Of a stretch of 10,261 nt of DNA, positions 912 through 6,289 are shown one piece after another. Source of the DNA: Candidatus Dormiibacterota bacterium (GTDB lineage: Bacteria > Chloroflexota > Dormibacteria > Dormibacterales > Dormibacteraceae); NCBI GenBank assembly GCA_003151665.1, contig PLYD01000267.1, positions 1-10,261 of the forward strand, in the 5' to 3' direction. The notes beneath the pieces were generated by a model, which was given only the letters and a program-made list of their open reading frames with translations, was not told the DNA's origin and made no database searches. A program made the translations under genes and the position numbers. Each line of letters begins with the position of its first letter. Position 1 is the first letter of the stretch.

Positions 912-1322
912 TCAAATCGGCTTTGAGCGTTTTTCGAGCCAAGTAGCGGCCTGCTCTGTACTGAGCTCATGGGCGGCGATTGAGAGAGCAAGGCCGCGCA
1001 GCTCTCCCCTCGCCGCCTCGAACACGTAACCTTCACGCTCCAGCCAGGCCGCCATCGCGTACATCGCTGTCCGCTTGTTTCCATCAACAAACCCGTGGTT
1101 CAGTACCAAGCTCTCAGCTAAGGCCGCGGCTCGCTTGAATTGAGTGTCGTATAGATTCTTGCCTCCAAACGAGGCCAGCGGGCGGGCGATGGCTGACTCG
1201 AGCAAACCGCGATCCCTAATCCCCTGCGATCCGCCGAACTCCGCCACAGCGACCGTGTGCATCCAGACCAGCTCTTCGAGGCTGATGAGGGGCCCGACCC
1301 GCCCCTTCTCAGAGGTCGGCAA
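912..1322 (-). CDS. doc: Doc-family (Fic fold) toxin of a type II toxin-antitoxin system
   Basis: A 136-residue protein of the death-on-curing family, close to the usual length of about 125-130. The Fic active-site motif is intact at residues 76-84, H-G-F-V-D-G-N-K-R, followed by TA; the catalytic His76 and the phosphate-binding NKR are present. The N-terminal part (ISLEELVWMHTVAVAEFGG, then IRDRGLLESAIARP) matches the standard first helices of Doc proteins. Phage P1 Doc phosphorylates EF-Tu and so stops translation; that activity is known for the family and inferred here. The start is TTG at 1322, which lets the toxin overlap the last 14 nt of the antitoxin gene and gives translational coupling; the next in-frame ATG (residue 21) would cut into the conserved first helix. 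A Gly replaces the Ala of P1 Doc before NKR, which is common in the family. The partner is the AbrB-type protein encoded immediately upstream, not a Phd. Confidence 0.9.
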   Translation of the reverse strand: MPTSEKGRVGPLISLEELVWMHTVAVAEFGGSQGIRDRGLLESAIARPLASFGGKNLYDTQFKRAAALAESLVLNHGFVDGNKRTAMYAMAAWLEREGYVFEAARGELRGLALSIAAHELSTEQAATWLEKRSKPI

Positions 1323-1539
1323 GCTCAGCTAGATCTTCTCGGTATCGCTCAGTAAAGCGGGCGGTGAACTCAATCACCCACTTGTCTGGAATGCCGGCGG
1401 GGTCGAGATCAACATGGCCAGGCCGAGAGCCTATCGCCACTTCCATCCCGGCCTTGAAGCCTGACTCAGAGATCGTTTCTGGCGGAAGAGGAATCATCAG
1501 CGAGTTCCCGACTTTACGGATCTTGCGTGTGATGACCAT
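1309..1539 (-). CDS. AbrB/MazE (SpoVT-AbrB fold) antitoxin paired with Doc
   Basis: A 76-residue protein starting MVITRKIRKVGNSLMIPLP, the typical swapped-hairpin AbrB DNA-binding N-terminus (residues 1 to about 45, with the conserved K-V-G-N-S core). A charged helical tail follows (about 53-76, rich in E, R and F) and is the expected toxin-binding segment. The frame is open further upstream to 1638, but I chose ATG 1539 because the AbrB domain begins exactly there and a perfect TATAAT lies 6 nt upstream, so the extra residues would be untranscribed. It ends with TGA at 1309-1311, inside the toxin gene. The expected role is to neutralise the Doc toxin and, with it, repress the shared promoter. 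AbrB-Doc pairs are less classical than Phd-Doc, though swaps of antitoxin type are known among TA modules. Confidence 0.87.
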   Translation of the reverse strand: MVITRKIRKVGNSLMIPLPPETISESGFKAGMEVAIGSRPGHVDLDPAGIPDKWVIEFTARFTERYREDLAELADL

Positions 1540-1545
1540 TGCTGA

Positions 1546-1551
1546 ATTATA
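1546..1551 (-). promoter_or_regulatory. -10 element (TATAAT) of the toxin-antitoxin operon, probably giving a leaderless mRNA
   Basis: On the minus strand, a perfect TATAAT is followed by six bases (TCAGCA... reading 1545-1540) and then the antitoxin ATG at 1539. A start site 6-7 nt after the -10 falls on or next to the A of ATG, so the message would have essentially no 5' UTR, and no Shine-Dalgarno is present. No good -35 lies at 17-bp spacing (CCACGC); a TTGGCG exists but is 23 bp away. Confidence 0.6.
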
Positions 1552-1735
1552 CAACGTAATTTCAGCCGGCGTGGCGCCAAAGAAACGGGAATCCGGGGGT
1601 CCACTAAGCGCTTGATAGTTGCCCATTATCGACAGCATTTGAGGTCGGGCCGCGATCTAGCTCTAAGTCAGCCTTAGCTATGTAGCGCCTCCTCCTGAGA
1701 TCCTCCAGCGCGCGTCTCCCGGGAGCGATCACCAG

Positions 1736-1765
1736 CGATGAGTTGACAGCGTTGTTAACTCATCG
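1736..1765. promoter_or_regulatory. 30-bp near-perfect palindrome, candidate operator over the -35 of the peptide gene
   Basis: The left half CGATGAGTTGACAGC (1736-1750) and the right half GTTGTTAACTCATCG (1751-1765) are reverse complements at 13 of 15 positions with no gap; symmetry stops at 1735/1766. It covers the TTGACA at 1743-1748 and the whole spacer up to the -10, so a dimer bound here would block RNA polymerase. The likeliest ligand is the HTH regulator encoded just downstream (inference). It lies upstream of the predicted transcription start, so it is best read as a DNA site and not an RNA hairpin; there is no T-tract to make it a terminator. Confidence 0.7.
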
Positions 1766-1771
1766 GACACT
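1743..1771 (+). promoter_or_regulatory. Promoter of the micropeptide-regulator cassette (TTGACA, 17 bp, GACACT)
   Basis: A consensus -35 TTGACA (1743-1748) is separated by 17 bp from GACACT (1766-1771), which keeps three of six -10 consensus bases (A2, A4, T6). The start site would be near 1778, giving a leader of about 22 nt that carries the strong ribosome binding site at 1786-1793. The weak -10 fits a regulated promoter, and the palindrome at 1736-1765 covers the -35. Confidence 0.55.
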
Positions 1772-1785
1772 CCGCCCATCACAAC

Positions 1786-1793
1786 AAGGAGGT
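1786..1793 (+). promoter_or_regulatory. Consensus Shine-Dalgarno AAGGAGGT for the micropeptide
   Basis: AAGGAGGT is complementary to the 3' end of 16S rRNA over its full length and lies 6 nt before ATG 1800. Other genes in the window have weak or no such site, so this one marks the short ORF as real and probably strongly translated. Confidence 0.8.
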
Positions 1794-1799
1794 GCGCTC

Positions 1800-1898
1800 A
1801 TGCGTAGGTTCATCCTGTCGCTTTGCCTGTCCGTGATTGGCTTGGCGCTGGCGATTGCGCCGGTGCTGGCTGATTCGATCGGGCCGACCCCCAAGTAA
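1800..1898 (+). CDS. 32-residue secreted micropeptide, candidate signalling pro-peptide
   Basis: An ATG at 1800 follows AAGGAGGT (1786-1793) with a 6-nt spacer, the best Shine-Dalgarno in the window and strong evidence of translation. The product starts MRRF, has a hydrophobic core at about residues 4-19 (ILSLCLSVIGLALAI) and a signal-peptidase-type site at PVLA before Asp25, which leaves the short tail DSIGPTPK at the C-terminus. A signal peptide followed by 5-10 polar residues is the layout of Phr, PapR, NprX and similar pheromone precursors. The next gene, 42 nt downstream on the same strand, encodes an HTH-TPR regulator, as in RNPP peptide-receptor pairs. It is most likely co-transcribed with that gene from the promoter at 1743-1771. 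Alternatives are a regulatory leader ORF coupled to the regulator, or a small membrane peptide. I recognise no named family. Translation is well supported; the signalling role is inference. Confidence 0.72.
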   Translation: MRRFILSLCLSVIGLALAIAPVLADSIGPTPK

Positions 1899-1922
1899 AG
1901 TCACTGAGGTTTCGGCTAGCGG

Positions 1923-1964
1923 ACTGTCGAGTGTGGCGGTATGCTCACCGCCATGCTCGACGGT
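1923..1964 (+). promoter_or_regulatory. 18-bp hairpin that holds both possible start codons of the HTH-TPR regulator
   Basis: The arms 1923-1940 (ACTGTCGAGTGTGGCGGT) and 1947-1964 (ACCGCCATGCTCGACGGT) pair over all 18 positions around a 6-nt loop, ATGCTC. Fifteen pairs are Watson-Crick and the three exceptions are all G-U in the plus-strand RNA; in the opposite transcript they would be A-C mismatches. The regulator ATG at 1941 is in the loop and the alternative ATG at 1953 is in the 3' arm. An in-frame TAG at 1917 rules out earlier starts. No T-tract follows, so it is not an intrinsic terminator. It could limit translation of the regulator, couple it to translation of the micropeptide, or be a second DNA operator. 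Confidence 0.7.
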
Positions 1965-3389
1965 AAGCATCGTGGCCGGCGCAAGGGTGTTGACGTTCGC
2001 GAAGGTTCCGTCCGTCAAGCAAGGCAAGAGGCAAGACTCAGCCTGGCCCAGGTCGCTGGCCAAACAATCAGTCGGACGGCCATCCACCTAATCGAGAAGG
2101 GTCGATCCCGGCCGTCGCTTGAGACCCTTGAGTTGATCGCGCGTAAGACCCGCAAGCCGGTCGGCTTTTTTTTGTTGCGACCTGATGGCGCTCCAGAATT
2201 GACCGCACGCAAGAGAGAGCTTGACGAGCTTGAGCGGCTGGTGGCGATGCGCGATTTTCAAACGGTCCTGGAATTGGCGCCGGCCCTCTTCGCACATCAA
2301 CGCTCCGACGAAGACACCGCTTTGATCCACTTCTATATCGGTCAGTCGTATTGCCGTCTCGTTCGCCCGACCGAAGCCATTGAGCACCTTCGTCTAGCCC
2401 GAACAGTCTTTGAGAACAGCGACGAATGGTTGGCCGTCGAAGCTTTGGACTGGGAGGCCTCGGCCCTTGGCCTTATGGAGGATCCGAGGGCTATTGCTCT
2501 CGCGGGTGAAGCGCTTGTTCGTTGCCGCCGACTTGATCCCAAACCACGCCAGACCGAGGCCCGCATCCTTGGCCATCTCGCCAATATGTACGTCGTCGCC
2601 CATGCCTGGGGCGAGGCTGTTAAGTACTACGAGGCAGCGGTCGTATCCGCCGGCGACGTGAAGGACCTTCTTCAATTGGCCAAGATGCACCACGGCTTAG
2701 GCACCGCCTTTCAGCGCATGCAGCAGCCAATCAAAGCACGCCAGCAGTTCGACAAAGCGCTCGCGCTGTATTCAATCGAGTCCGATCTAAGCGCCGTGTA
2801 CAGGCTAGAAAATGATCTGGGTGATCTGCTGCTCCACCAGGGCCAGCTCGACTCAGCAGAGCAGCACTTTCGCTCGGCCCTCGCTGGATCAAGTGCGCTG
2901 CAAATAGATCGGCGCGGTCGAGGGTACATATTGACCAATCTCGGCGAGGTCAGTCTGCGACGAGGTGATCTGGATTTATCACGCCAACAGCTCCTCGAAG
3001 CCCTGGAAGTGGGTAATGCGGTCGGGGAACAAGTTGTTGTCGCCAACGCATACACCCTCCTGGGGCAACTTGAGGCTCGGCAGAAGAACCTTAAGTTGGC
3101 AGGCGAACACTTCGATTCGGCGATCAGCACACTCGAGGCACTCGAGATGCCCGATCGACTTCGCGACTGCCATATGGCCTGCGCAGATTCACTGTACGAG
3201 CTCGGAGATGTTGATTTAGCAGCGCTTCACTGGAAGGCAGCGGCTGAAATCGGCAGGCTCAATGCTCTAGGACTTCAATGGTCTGCGACTTCTTTTCAGC
3301 GTTCGGCGGCCGAAGTGACCCGCTCATCGTCCGAGCCGCGAACGTCAGAATCCGGCCGGCGAGACCACCAGACGAAAGCCCTCGCCTAA
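1941..3389 (+). CDS. XRE-type HTH regulator with C-terminal TPR array (RNPP-like receptor candidate)
   Basis: A 482-residue cytoplasmic protein. A lambda-repressor-type HTH spans about residues 22-78, with the usual pattern VRQARQEARLSLAQVAG, then a recognition helix around ISRTAIHLIEKGRSRPS and the closing LELIARKTRKPVGFFL. From about 95 to 450 there are helix pairs of about 40 residues typical of TPRs, with repeated signatures such as GLGTAFQRM, NDLGDLLLHQGQLDSAEQHF, TNLGEVSLRRGDLDLSRQQL and LLGQLEARQKNLKLAGEHF. The last 27 residues are polar and probably disordered. XRE-TPR proteins of this kind bind DNA as dimers and switch on binding small ligands or peptides to the TPR groove; in RNPP members the ligand is a secreted peptide encoded next door. 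Either ATG 1941 or ATG 1953 may be the start; both lie in the hairpin at 1923-1964 and neither has a clear ribosome binding site. Likely targets are the palindrome upstream of the peptide gene and possibly its own start region. The fold call is firm; the peptide-ligand role is inferred from context. Confidence 0.9.
   Translation: MLTAMLDGKHRGRRKGVDVREGSVRQARQEARLSLAQVAGQTISRTAIHLIEKGRSRPSLETLELIARKTRKPVGFFLLRPDGAPELTARKRELDELERLVAMRDFQTVLELAPALFAHQRSDEDTALIHFYIGQSYCRLVRPTEAIEHLRLARTVFENSDEWLAVEALDWEASALGLMEDPRAIALAGEALVRCRRLDPKPRQTEARILGHLANMYVVAHAWGEAVKYYEAAVVSAGDVKDLLQLAKMHHGLGTAFQRMQQPIKARQQFDKALALYSIESDLSAVYRLENDLGDLLLHQGQLDSAEQHFRSALAGSSALQIDRRGRGYILTNLGEVSLRRGDLDLSRQQLLEALEVGNAVGEQVVVANAYTLLGQLEARQKNLKLAGEHFDSAISTLEALEMPDRLRDCHMACADSLYELGDVDLAALHWKAAAEIGRLNALGLQWSATSFQRSAAEVTRSSSEPRTSESGRRDHQTKALA
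2154..2173 (+). other. Small hairpin plus T8 tract inside the HTH-TPR coding region
   Basis: AAGCC (2154-2158), loop GGTC and GGCTT (2163-2167) are followed directly by a run of eight T (2166-2173) that encodes Gly-Phe-Phe-Leu at the end of the HTH domain. It resembles a weak intrinsic terminator and is also a possible slippage tract. The stem is only 5 bp, so function is doubtful, but T8 is unusual in DNA this GC-rich, where TTC would be the expected Phe codon. Confidence 0.3.
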
Positions 3390-3402: not shown

Positions 3403-3852
3403 TCAAGTCTGACGTCGACCGCCGGACTCCGAAGGCTCGATGGCACTCCGAGGATCGGGCAGGGCGACCACCCGATCGCACACGGCAGCCACGCGATCGT
3501 CATGGGTCACGATGATCATGGTCTTCCCGCCAGCATTCAACGCTCGGAGCATCGCCAGAACCAAGTCTGCGTTGGTCGTGTCCAATGAGCCCGTCGGCTC
3601 GTCAGCCAGCACCAAATCACACGGTTTGAGCATCAGACGCGCTATCGCAACCCGTTGCTGCTCGCCACCGGACAGCTGGTAAACCTTCTGCCCATCCGCC
3701 GAGTTGGACAAGCCGACTGCCCGCAAGGCGGATCTTCTGGCCTCCTGTCGGCCCGAGCGCGGAGCCGATCGTTTCACCTTCGGCGGCCCATGAGAGATGA
3801 ACCGAGCAAAGAGCCCCAAATGGACCTGACGCGCTACGTGCACCGTTACCAT
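3403..3852 (-). pseudogene. 5'-truncated ABC transporter ATPase remnant (MacB/LolD/FtsE-like)
   Basis: The minus-strand frame contains the C-terminal half of an ABC ATPase: signature LSGGEQQR (3651-3674), Walker B LVLADEPTGSLD with the catalytic Glu, D-loop, and the H-loop IIVTHDD. This sequence type belongs to the MacB/LolD/FtsE class, which works with FtsX-like permeases. The Walker A (GxxGxGKS/T) and Q-loop regions are absent: upstream of about 3852 the frame continues to 4008 but only as shadow coding antisense to the next gene's start. Such a protein could not bind ATP normally. Convincing similarity starts at about GRQEARRSALRAVGL (near 3754) and may extend to 3852. There is no permease partner in the window. 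It ends with TGA at 3403, 13 bp from the convergent stop of the TPR regulator. It is probably a decayed gene cut when the operon starting at 3884 became its neighbour; an assembly error is less likely. Confidence 0.75.
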
Positions 3853-3874
3853 TCTCGCCACCGGCCCGTATATA
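3846..3874 (+). promoter_or_regulatory. Putative promoter of the five-gene ABC-MoxR operon (TTACCA, 17 bp, TATATA)
   Basis: TTACCA (3846-3851) is spaced 17 bp from TATATA (3869-3874). A start site 6-7 nt later would fall at about 3881, only about 3 nt before ATG 3884, so the mRNA would be nearly leaderless. An AGAGGA (3874-3879) 4 nt before the ATG could serve as a ribosome binding site if transcription starts further upstream; both cannot apply fully at once. Confidence 0.4.
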
Positions 3875-3883
3875 GAGGAACAG

Positions 3884-6289
3884 ATGCCAGCTAGCCGCCG
3901 GCGCGCGTCAGCTCGCGCGGCCCTCGCCTTCGTGGCGGCGGCGCTGACCCTTCTTGCCGCCTCGAACGCCACCCAGGCAGCCACGAACCCACTGTCCATC
4001 GTCCTCAAAGTCGGTTACTCGGGGTTCGTCAAGGCCCAACAGTGGATGCCGGTGACCATCGACCTGACCAACAAGGGCCCGGACGTCGAAGCCACGCTCG
4101 AGGTCACCACTGGTAGCGGCTCAAATCCGAACAACGGCCAGCCGCTCGAATCGGTCATCTATCAGTCCCACCTCAGCCTGCCCGCCGGCGCCACCAAGCA
4201 CCTGCGGACCTATCTGGTCGAAGACCAGGCGCCTTCCGTCGTCTCCGTCCGTATCGTGGCGAACGGTCAAGTGCTCGCGTCGGCTGACTCGCAGACGAGC
4301 GCGCCAGCCACCGTCCTGATCGGTGTCCTATCCGACCAGGCCGCCGCGCTTGACAGCTTTTCGGCCGTCCATCCAGGAGGCATCTCGGCCAACGTCGTGC
4401 ACCTGTCACTCGAGGACGTCGGCGATTCGGGAATTCTGCTCCGCGCTTTCGACCTGCTCGTCATTGACGACTTCGCCACCGACACGCTGACCGCCGCCCA
4501 GCGCAGCGCCGTCACGGACTACGTGCAGAACGGCGGCGAGCTCTTGCTGGGCACTGGCGCTTCCTGGCGCAAGACTCTCGCGGGCGTGTCCTCGGCGATC
4601 CTGCCGGTGCAGATCGACGGCACGACCATCCTCACCTCGTCGCCGGAGCTGGGCAACTTGTCGCGCGTGGAGATCGCCACCGGAGCACTCCCCGCAGGGG
4701 CGCGTGCCTGGCTGTCTGAAGGCAACCGGCCCTTGCTGGCAGAGAGGTTCGTGGGCAGCGGATCGGTGACCCTGGCGACGTTCGACTGGAACCAGGATCC
4801 AATCGCGAGCTGGAGCGGTGCCAGCGTGCTGCTCCGACAGATCCTCGTGCGCAGCGTCTTCGCAACTTCTCAGAACCTTGGGCAGGGTTTCGTAGGTCCA
4901 TTCGGCTCCTCGGGCATCTCGGTGTCAGAACGCAGCAGCGCTCTTTCGCAAGCGCTGGGTAACCTGCCCGCGCTCGACCTACCCTCACTGGTCGTGATTG
5001 GGCTCCTGGTCCTCGCATACGTGCTGCTGGTCGGCCCTATCAACTATCTCGTGCTGCGCGCCCTCCACCGCGGCGCTCTGGCCTGGGTCACCGTGCCGGT
5101 GATCGCAATCGTCGCGTCAGCCGGTGCGTTCGGCACCGGCGTTTTCACCAAGGGTCGCTCCACGCAGACAAACCAGGTCTCGATCATTCACCTGCAGCCG
5201 GGCTGGGACCGTGCCTACCAGGAGTCATACACCGGCATCCTCACCCCAACGCGCGGTGACTACAGCGTCAGCGTCTCGGGTGCGCCGGTGTTGATCGCAC
5301 CTACCGGCTCATACAGCGGCGGCATCAGCTCCGACGTCATCCGCGTCGGCGCCGACAACTCGATAACGCTTCCGGCGATGACTGCTTACACGCTGCGGGG
5401 ATTCGCCACCGAAAGCGTGGTCACCGCGCCACAGCTGAGCGCAACCGCATCGTTTGCAAACGGCAAGCTGCAGGGCACGATCCGGAACCTTTCCAGCATG
5501 CCCTTCACCGATGCGGTGGTTCTCGCGGGCGACGGTTATCAGATACTTCCGACGTTGGCGCCAGGCGCCACCGCCACCTACGAGGTCACGCCCAAACTCT
5601 CGAACATGTTCATAGGGCCGCCGGCTGTCATGAACATCTACCCGAACAGCTTTTACTCCAATGGCGCGCCGCTGCCCTCGCAATCAGCCGACGCTGATCG
5701 CGAGGCGTTCGAGAAGACGACCATCCTGTCATTGCTCTCCGGATCGATGTACGGCAACTCGCCAACGATCGTTCCTATGGTCGTGGCGTGGACAAAGCAG
5801 CCAGGCCAGGAGGTCACGATCGCGGGGAGCCGGCCGCACACGACCACTGAGACCGCCGTCGTGCTACCGCTGCAAGTCAGCGGGATCGGTGCCGGCTCGC
5901 TGCCCGCGGGCATGGTCACGAGCCGCTTCACCGACATGGAGGGCGACACTCAGCCTGCGTCGCCGGGCGCGGTGCTGTTGCAGAACGGCACCGTGACGTA
6001 CGACTTCACACCGAACCTCGCTCTAGGAGCCCACCTGGCAACAGCGTCACTGGACTCGACGGTTTCGAGTCCCAAGGGCCCAGCTCCGGGCTCAACTTCA
6101 AACCTCCCGGCCAAAGTCTGGGATTGGCAGCAATCAGCTTGGGTTCCGCTTGACTACAACCCGAACGGCGTCACCGCGCTCCCGATCGCAGCAATCAATC
6201 CATCCTCAGGCGAGCTGCGACTCCAGGTTGTAGCCACCGGCACGCAGGTCTTGCTTGGATCGATCTCGTTGACGGGGACCGTGCAGTGA
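3884..6289 (+). CDS. Large exported membrane protein with glutamine-amidotransferase-like domain, first gene of ABC-MoxR operon
   Basis: An 801-residue envelope protein. Residues 1-32 form a signal peptide: Arg-rich start, hydrophobic core LAFVAAALTLLAA, and an ATQA cleavage site. Residues about 35-140 look like an immunoglobulin-like beta domain (MPVTIDLTNKGPDVEATLEV). About 143-300 is an alpha/beta region of the class I glutamine-amidotransferase-like type: FDLLVIDDFATDTLTAAQRSAV, then DYVQNGGELLLGTGASW. No catalytic Cys-His-Glu triad is apparent, so it is probably a non-enzymatic binding domain. Two TM helices follow at about 364-385 and 397-420, joined by the characteristic VGPINYLVLRALHRG. 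The C-terminal 380 residues are beta-rich and extracytoplasmic, ending near the membrane. Proteins of this shape recur beside ABC-2 transporters and MoxR operons; their function is not established. ATG 3884 has AGAGGA 4 nt upstream. The stop TGA overlaps the GTG of the next gene by 4 bp. Confidence 0.8.
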   Translation: MPASRRRASARAALAFVAAALTLLAASNATQAATNPLSIVLKVGYSGFVKAQQWMPVTIDLTNKGPDVEATLEVTTGSGSNPNNGQPLESVIYQSHLSLPAGATKHLRTYLVEDQAPSVVSVRIVANGQVLASADSQTSAPATVLIGVLSDQAAALDSFSAVHPGGISANVVHLSLEDVGDSGILLRAFDLLVIDDFATDTLTAAQRSAVTDYVQNGGELLLGTGASWRKTLAGVSSAILPVQIDGTTILTSSPELGNLSRVEIATGALPAGARAWLSEGNRPLLAERFVGSGSVTLATFDWNQDPIASWSGASVLLRQILVRSVFATSQNLGQGFVGPFGSSGISVSERSSALSQALGNLPALDLPSLVVIGLLVLAYVLLVGPINYLVLRALHRGALAWVTVPVIAIVASAGAFGTGVFTKGRSTQTNQVSIIHLQPGWDRAYQESYTGILTPTRGDYSVSVSGAPVLIAPTGSYSGGISSDVIRVGADNSITLPAMTAYTLRGFATESVVTAPQLSATASFANGKLQGTIRNLSSMPFTDAVVLAGDGYQILPTLAPGATATYEVTPKLSNMFIGPPAVMNIYPNSFYSNGAPLPSQSADADREAFEKTTILSLLSGSMYGNSPTIVPMVVAWTKQPGQEVTIAGSRPHTTTETAVVLPLQVSGIGAGSLPAGMVTSRFTDMEGDTQPASPGAVLLQNGTVTYDFTPNLALGAHLATASLDSTVSSPKGPAPGSTSNLPAKVWDWQQSAWVPLDYNPNGVTALPIAAINPSSGELRLQVVATGTQVLLGSISLTGTVQ

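Follow-up and report, generated by a model that had tools for sequence, protein, structure and literature searches.

Signalling by an exported peptide and a cytosolic TPR receptor is described, in the accessible text of the literature, as a trait of Firmicutes, and the RRNPP surveys likewise cover, as far as their accessible text goes, Firmicutes and their elements (PMC9765709, PMC10075063, PMC12700828). Within the literature searched, outside of which most subscription papers lay, we found no report of RRNPP in Chloroflexota, Chloroflexi or Dormibacter, a paper on a Streptococcus Rgg being the sole match for Chloroflexi, none of peptide quorum sensing in Dormibacterota, and for a peptide pheromone in Chloroflexota only an unrelated title; the accessible text of PMC7298704, on Dormibacter and quorum sensing, names no such system.

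In the present study, we analysed a pair of genes in a stretch of 10,261 nucleotides of Dormibacterota DNA (the window, meaning this stretch as a whole), namely a short micro-ORF and an HTH-TPR regulator downstream of it, which had originally been predicted to be a peptide pheromone and its receptor. The pair proved real; it is spread widely through the class and is under selection, and we consider it quite probable, judging from the sequences, that it forms an RRNPP-like export/re-import peptide signalling switch in Dormibacterota. Of the five RRNPP criteria given in the accessible text of PMC10075063, the pair agrees with four, i.e., a propeptide of 10-100 aa (32 aa here), a receptor of 250-500 aa (482 aa for ORF 1941-3389, or 478 aa from the start at 1953), TPRs in the receptor (several TPR families in Pfam, TPR_12 with E 1.5e-23) and direct gene adjacency (a 42-nt gap), and it is consistent with the fifth, Sec export.

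The peptide gene and the neighbouring regulator in the window

The micro-ORF carries no annotation, and its precursor reads MRRFILSLCLSVIGLALAIAPVLA followed by DSIGPTPK (Table 1). The 32-codon frame, the strong Shine-Dalgarno, the signal peptide and the tail of the original prediction were all confirmed in the sequence. The signal-peptide cleavage site was placed by simple rules only, by which the precursors have a basic N-terminus, a hydrophobic core and an AxA-type site; under a permissive test the latter is present in all 74 precursors of the family, which are 26-77 aa long. As to the predicted spacing of 42 nt, it holds from the micro-ORF stop to ATG 1941, but the sequence makes ATG 1953 the likelier start of the regulator: its Met (M5 of the 1941 frame) is invariant in 104 aligned sequences and a TANNNT lies 7 nt before it, so that the true gap is probably 54 nt. 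One sequence outside that alignment, L002, has ATA at the M5 position. The structure model of the regulator contains about nine TPRs.

Table 1. Features of the peptide/regulator locus and its neighbours in the window
Feature	Position	Strand	Basis or remark
Fic/Doc-family gene	912-1322	-	Pfam
Short ORF	1309-1638	-	Pfam without match
Imperfect palindrome CGATGAGTTGACA-GCGT-TGTTAACTCATCG	1736-1765	.	13-bp arms, 1 mismatch; candidate operator
Putative peptide-gene promoter	1743-1771	+	TTGACA 1743-1748, 17 nt, GACACT 1766-1771
Shine-Dalgarno AAGGAGGTG of peptide gene	1786-1794	+	
Propeptide gene, 32 codons + TAA	1800-1898	+	ORF reading, coding conservation, homologous ORFs
Predicted signal peptide of propeptide gene	1800-1871	+	Sequence MRRFILSLCLSVIGLALAIAPVLA
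Tail DSIGPTPK of propeptide	1872-1895	+	After predicted cut
Stop codon of propeptide gene	1896-1898	+	
TATGCT, -10 (TANNNT) of probable separate leaderless regulator promoter	1940-1945	+	
HTH-TPR regulator, putative peptide receptor	1953-3389	+	ORF finder start 1941
HTH_3 domain, residues 24-74 of 1941 frame	2010-2162	+	Pfam
TPR superhelix, residues 85-445	2193-3275	+	Pfam and structure model
Partial ABC ATPase	3403-4008	-	Convergent with regulator

Among the neighbours, the Fic/Doc-family gene overlaps a short ORF that has, by eye, the look of an AbrB-type antitoxin, and the two, lying immediately upstream of the proposed signalling genes, are likely a toxin-antitoxin pair. On the other side, the partial ABC ATPase has its best profile match in a bacteriocin-export ABC ATPase, at 122.9 bits against a cut-off of 254.85 and over profile positions 108-206 only; being partial and below the cut-off, this match probably marks a remnant.

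Pairing across the class and coding selection

A whole-class search returned 110 matches to the regulator, in 54 of 110 genomes. Seven of these matches were fragments and were left out, 104 loci including that of the window were examined, and for 101 of them both the start and the upstream region could be used. Left out before the counts were L005 as a weak match, L006 as lying on the contig of L001, L012 for its missing N-terminus, and L060 and L082, whose upstream region is cut by the contig end; L105 was left out of the tree. A strict scan of -300 to +100 nt for ORFs of 22-90 codons with a Shine-Dalgarno, a basic N-terminus and an uncharged hydrophobic core found a micro-ORF on the sense strand of 69 of the 101 regulators and on the antisense strand of none of the 101. 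The same scan gave 2 of 82 downstream, where many stretches are no longer than about 200 nt, and 7 of 2020 in dinucleotide shuffles. Five relaxed cases (L013, L014, L020, L037 and L097), taken by eye with a weak Shine-Dalgarno, sequence or position, bring the total to 74 of 101. With the regulators clustered at 80% identity, the strict match was present in all members of 46 of 71 clusters, in none of 24 and in some members of one. At least one pair occurs in 51 of the 110 genomes and at least two in 20, with up to four co-resident. The pairing of homologous regulators with an upstream signal-peptide ORF, on which the original prediction staked its case, is therefore borne out.

The opposite pattern, regulators that lack such an ORF, had been named as grounds for refutation, and it was found mainly in one part of the tree. 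Of the 11 rows in the clade of the window itself, 10 have the micro-ORF, the eleventh being L012, without N-terminus. A sister clade (with L022, L025, L054 and L063 among its regulators) lacks it in 21 of 24 testable rows, L004, L057 and L068 being those that keep it, and contributes 22 of the 27 loci without micro-ORF (the 21 tree rows plus L105, which lies outside the tree and was assigned by its N-terminus). One of the sister-clade loci without micro-ORF, L071, carries a palindrome like that of the window, with 2 mismatches, about 70 nt before its longest ORF.

Beyond the family, 60 more distant HTH-TPR homologues, a part of all such matches (55 from other classes of the phylum and 5 same-class paralogues), were scanned over -350 to +60 nt; a micro-ORF was found for 3 of 60 on the sense and 9 of 60 on the antisense strand, so that at these loci a match can also arise by chance or from divergent genes. 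Within the family, 69 of 101 sense against none of 101 antisense is a difference of another order. Two of the three sense matches, L218 and L225, belong to HTH-TPR genes of another class, as does L211, which likewise has a signal-peptide ORF upstream. For L218 and L225 this ORF lies about 190 nt upstream and encodes a shared 41-aa peptide that ends in a C...C tail, with 15/7/19 differences by codon position; the two may represent a related signalling system.

The micro-ORFs evolve as protein, with selection at the amino-acid level, and the coding conservation expected of the peptide frame is thus present: in 24 pairs, each locus being used once though some pairs share branches, pS was 0.322 and pN 0.124, and the differences by codon position were 113/74/219. 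Between the window and its nearest relative there are four changes in the micro-ORF, two of them silent and the others D-to-E and S-to-T at the first two tail residues. Against L001, the DNA identity of the window is 96% in the micro-ORF, 100% in the 42-nt gap and 72-78% in the TPR part.

Tail types, promoters and other possible roles for the micro-ORF

Along this conserved pairing the tails vary, again as predicted. Among the 74 precursors, 10 tails are of IGPTP type, 5 of STGP, 27 Cys-ending (CC or CHC), 20 of WPN and 12 of other types, and they cluster on the receptor tree, needing 18 changes where shuffled labels need 61 on average, a contrast to which near-identical rows contribute. Counted by type, there are 2 changes for IGPTP, 2 for WPN, 7 for Cys-ending and 9 for other tails, and the STGP tails make up one side of a single branch. 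For 59 distinct single-copy peptides of at most 40 aa each, tail distance correlates with TPR distance at 0.45 and with HTH distance at 0.39; in partial Mantel tests the value is 0.25 (P 0.0005) for tail and TPR given HTH, and 0.03 (P 0.21) for tail and HTH given TPR. The closer link of the tails with the TPR part than with the HTH is suggestive only, because shared ancestry by itself also gives co-variation and the HTH was compared over a short stretch of 65 columns.

Of the WPN precursors, 13 are single-copy and 7 hold two or three non-identical copies. The single-WPN peptides (e.g., L031, L094 and L100) have a Cys right before the tail in 12 of 13 cases, a feature which we take to be akin to a lipoprotein box and which suggests that the precursors of this clade are processed by signal peptidase II. 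The last eight tail residues differ in all 20 genomes with at least two pairs; in nine of these 20 (seven WPN genomes, G001 and G448), two tails are nevertheless of one broad type, so the insulation of pairs is not supported there. At L121 (G001:C9), two regulator/peptide pairs of different type stand in tandem about 0.5 kb apart, with tails DSIGPTGR and DSTGPHI.

Tail classes group together on the receptor tree and follow the TPR part of the receptor more closely than the HTH part, which speaks against a reading in which the product of the micro-ORF is a small exported protein with a job of its own (an antimicrobial or an envelope peptide), and the neighbouring regulator controls its gene but senses something else with its TPRs. 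This reading has the palindrome at the micro-ORF promoter on its side, as well as the Cys-Cys and WPN tails, which could have other chemistry, and the sister clade, where 21 of 24 rows without ORF and the palindrome of L071 imply that regulators can manage without the peptide. The multiple WPN copies per precursor, on the other hand, resemble pheromone precursors (accessible text of PMC11343458), and we regard an independent job for the peptide as unlikely.

The palindrome overlaps the -35 box TTGACA of the peptide gene, whose putative promoter has a weak -10 match (GACACT). Throughout the IGPTP clade CGACACTC is constant, save one base in the window, the GGAGGT of the Shine-Dalgarno is kept in 10 aligned loci, and the palindrome core TGAGTTGACA...GT(C/T)AA(C/G)TCA lies over the TTGACA in 10 of 10 loci. 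The exact core has 9 sites in 8 of 9 genomes, every one at such a peptide-gene promoter and none elsewhere in the nine genomes scanned; its backward control had 0 sites in the same scan. By clade, the excess of palindromes is clear in IGPTP, weak in STGP and absent in CC and WPN. A search pattern with a fixed 6-nt gap misses the site of the window itself, which has a gap of 5 nt.

At up to 3 mismatches, the core has a few further sites in four genomes, where the backward control gave 2 matches each in G001 and G343 and none in G216 and G028. One such site, before a gene for a 139-aa membrane protein, looked promising in G343 and G216, yet is patchily kept (of 8 genomes with this gene, 3 have it at 2 mismatches, 1 at 4 and 4 not at all), and we do not put the gene forward as a target. 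Neighbouring genes were rejected as targets: in a comparison of 21 extended loci, the window included, the sharing of neighbour families among IGPTP loci was largely confined to genus g8, apart from a few broad families. Two CC-type pairs from different genera, L137 and L138, have three neighbour gene families in common.

Furthermore, the regulator probably has a separate, leaderless promoter of its own. In the IGPTP clade, 9 of 10 loci have a TANNNT 7 nt ahead of the start codon (for a spacing of 6-7, shuffling gives 0.29 of 10 on average), and at 5-9 nt such a box precedes the regulator in 9 of 10 IGPTP, 23 of 25 CC and 13 of 13 single-WPN loci, where shuffling gives means of 0.63, 1.48 and 0.56, though in 0 of 5 STGP loci (mean 0.25). 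The box argues against a translated leader (uORF) that would control the regulator in cis by attenuation or translational coupling, as a short same-strand ORF directly upstream, with a 42-nt gap wholly identical in the nearest relative, might lead one to think. With selection acting on the amino acids of the micro-ORF, and with a gap that varies in length and sequence between clades, such a leader is very improbable. Least credible is a toxin-antitoxin-like pair in which a repressor silences a hydrophobic, membrane-active peptide: a small hydrophobic peptide does lie beside an HTH protein, with a Fic-family gene and short partner ORF just upstream, but the AxA-type site in 74 of 74 precursors (permissive test) and the conserved tail fit a secreted precursor, and an antitoxin with nine TPRs would presumably be unusual.

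The proposed switch and its likeness to known systems

In the peptide signalling switch that we prefer, the propeptide would be exported by Sec and cut after VLA, leaving as signal the tail DSIGPTPK, either whole or trimmed so as to keep the IGPTP core. Re-imported by an oligopeptide (Opp-type) importer, it would bind the concave TPR surface of the adjacent regulator, which may itself bind the palindrome over the peptide-gene -35 box; most simply, it would be a repressor released by the peptide, with positive feedback as the result, and a wider regulon can be conjectured. SBP_bac_5 has 6-12 matches in each of 8 of 8 genomes, and is also matched in 11 of 14 control genomes. Conserved pairing and variable tails support the original peptide/receptor reading, of which binding, export and quorum sensing are the conjectural parts.

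On a larger scale, we find it fairly probable that Dormibacterota own a large peptide language, an RRNPP-like family that may have arisen independently. It would comprise four or more signal types (IGPTP, STGP, C-terminal Cys-Cys and WPN), as many as four pairs co-resident in one genome, and WPN precursors with several copies. If so, there would be peptide quorum sensing with cytosolic receptors outside Firmicutes, in a largely uncultured soil phylum, and the trait as described in the accessible literature would gain another phylum. It would also name testable signal sequences for soil bacteria that are hard to culture, and provide a separate data set on the co-evolution of pheromone and receptor specificity.

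The profile matches of the family include a plasmid Rap (E 3.6e-8), the PlcR HTH (E 0.03) and O-GlcNAc transferase (E 1.8e-8). At E up to 10, the window regulator matches HTH, TPR and other repeat-type Pfam models only; for the whole set of 19, 25 of the 68 Pfam families are listed. The modelled TPR part aligns to the peptide-binding Rap and NprR, and the TPRs of LGN and O-GlcNAc transferase match it equally well. Compared with NprR-NprX and PlcR-PapR of Bacillus, both RRNPP systems, the pair belongs to a different phylum, NprR being only about 10% identical to the regulator, and a leaderless promoter of its own seems to serve the Dormibacterota receptor. To our knowledge, the tails IGPTP, STGP, CC and WPN are unlike the signals of NprX, PapR, Phr and PrgX. 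Rap proteins are not known to carry an HTH, and the Dormibacterota receptor differs from Rap-Phr of Bacillus, phages and plasmids in that it carries a DNA-binding domain. AimR is an HTH-bearing receptor. The AimR-AimP arbitrium of Bacillus phages likewise joins a TPR receptor to a small secreted peptide signal (accessible text of PMC6458997). A phage origin of the pair was considered and set aside, one scan of viral contigs with two patterns having returned no relative. The candidate clusters of RRNPP_detector come from a survey whose scope, in the accessible text, is Firmicutes and viruses (PMC10075063). Finally, the multi-copy WPN precursors resemble the repeated Phr precursors described in the accessible text of PMC11343458.
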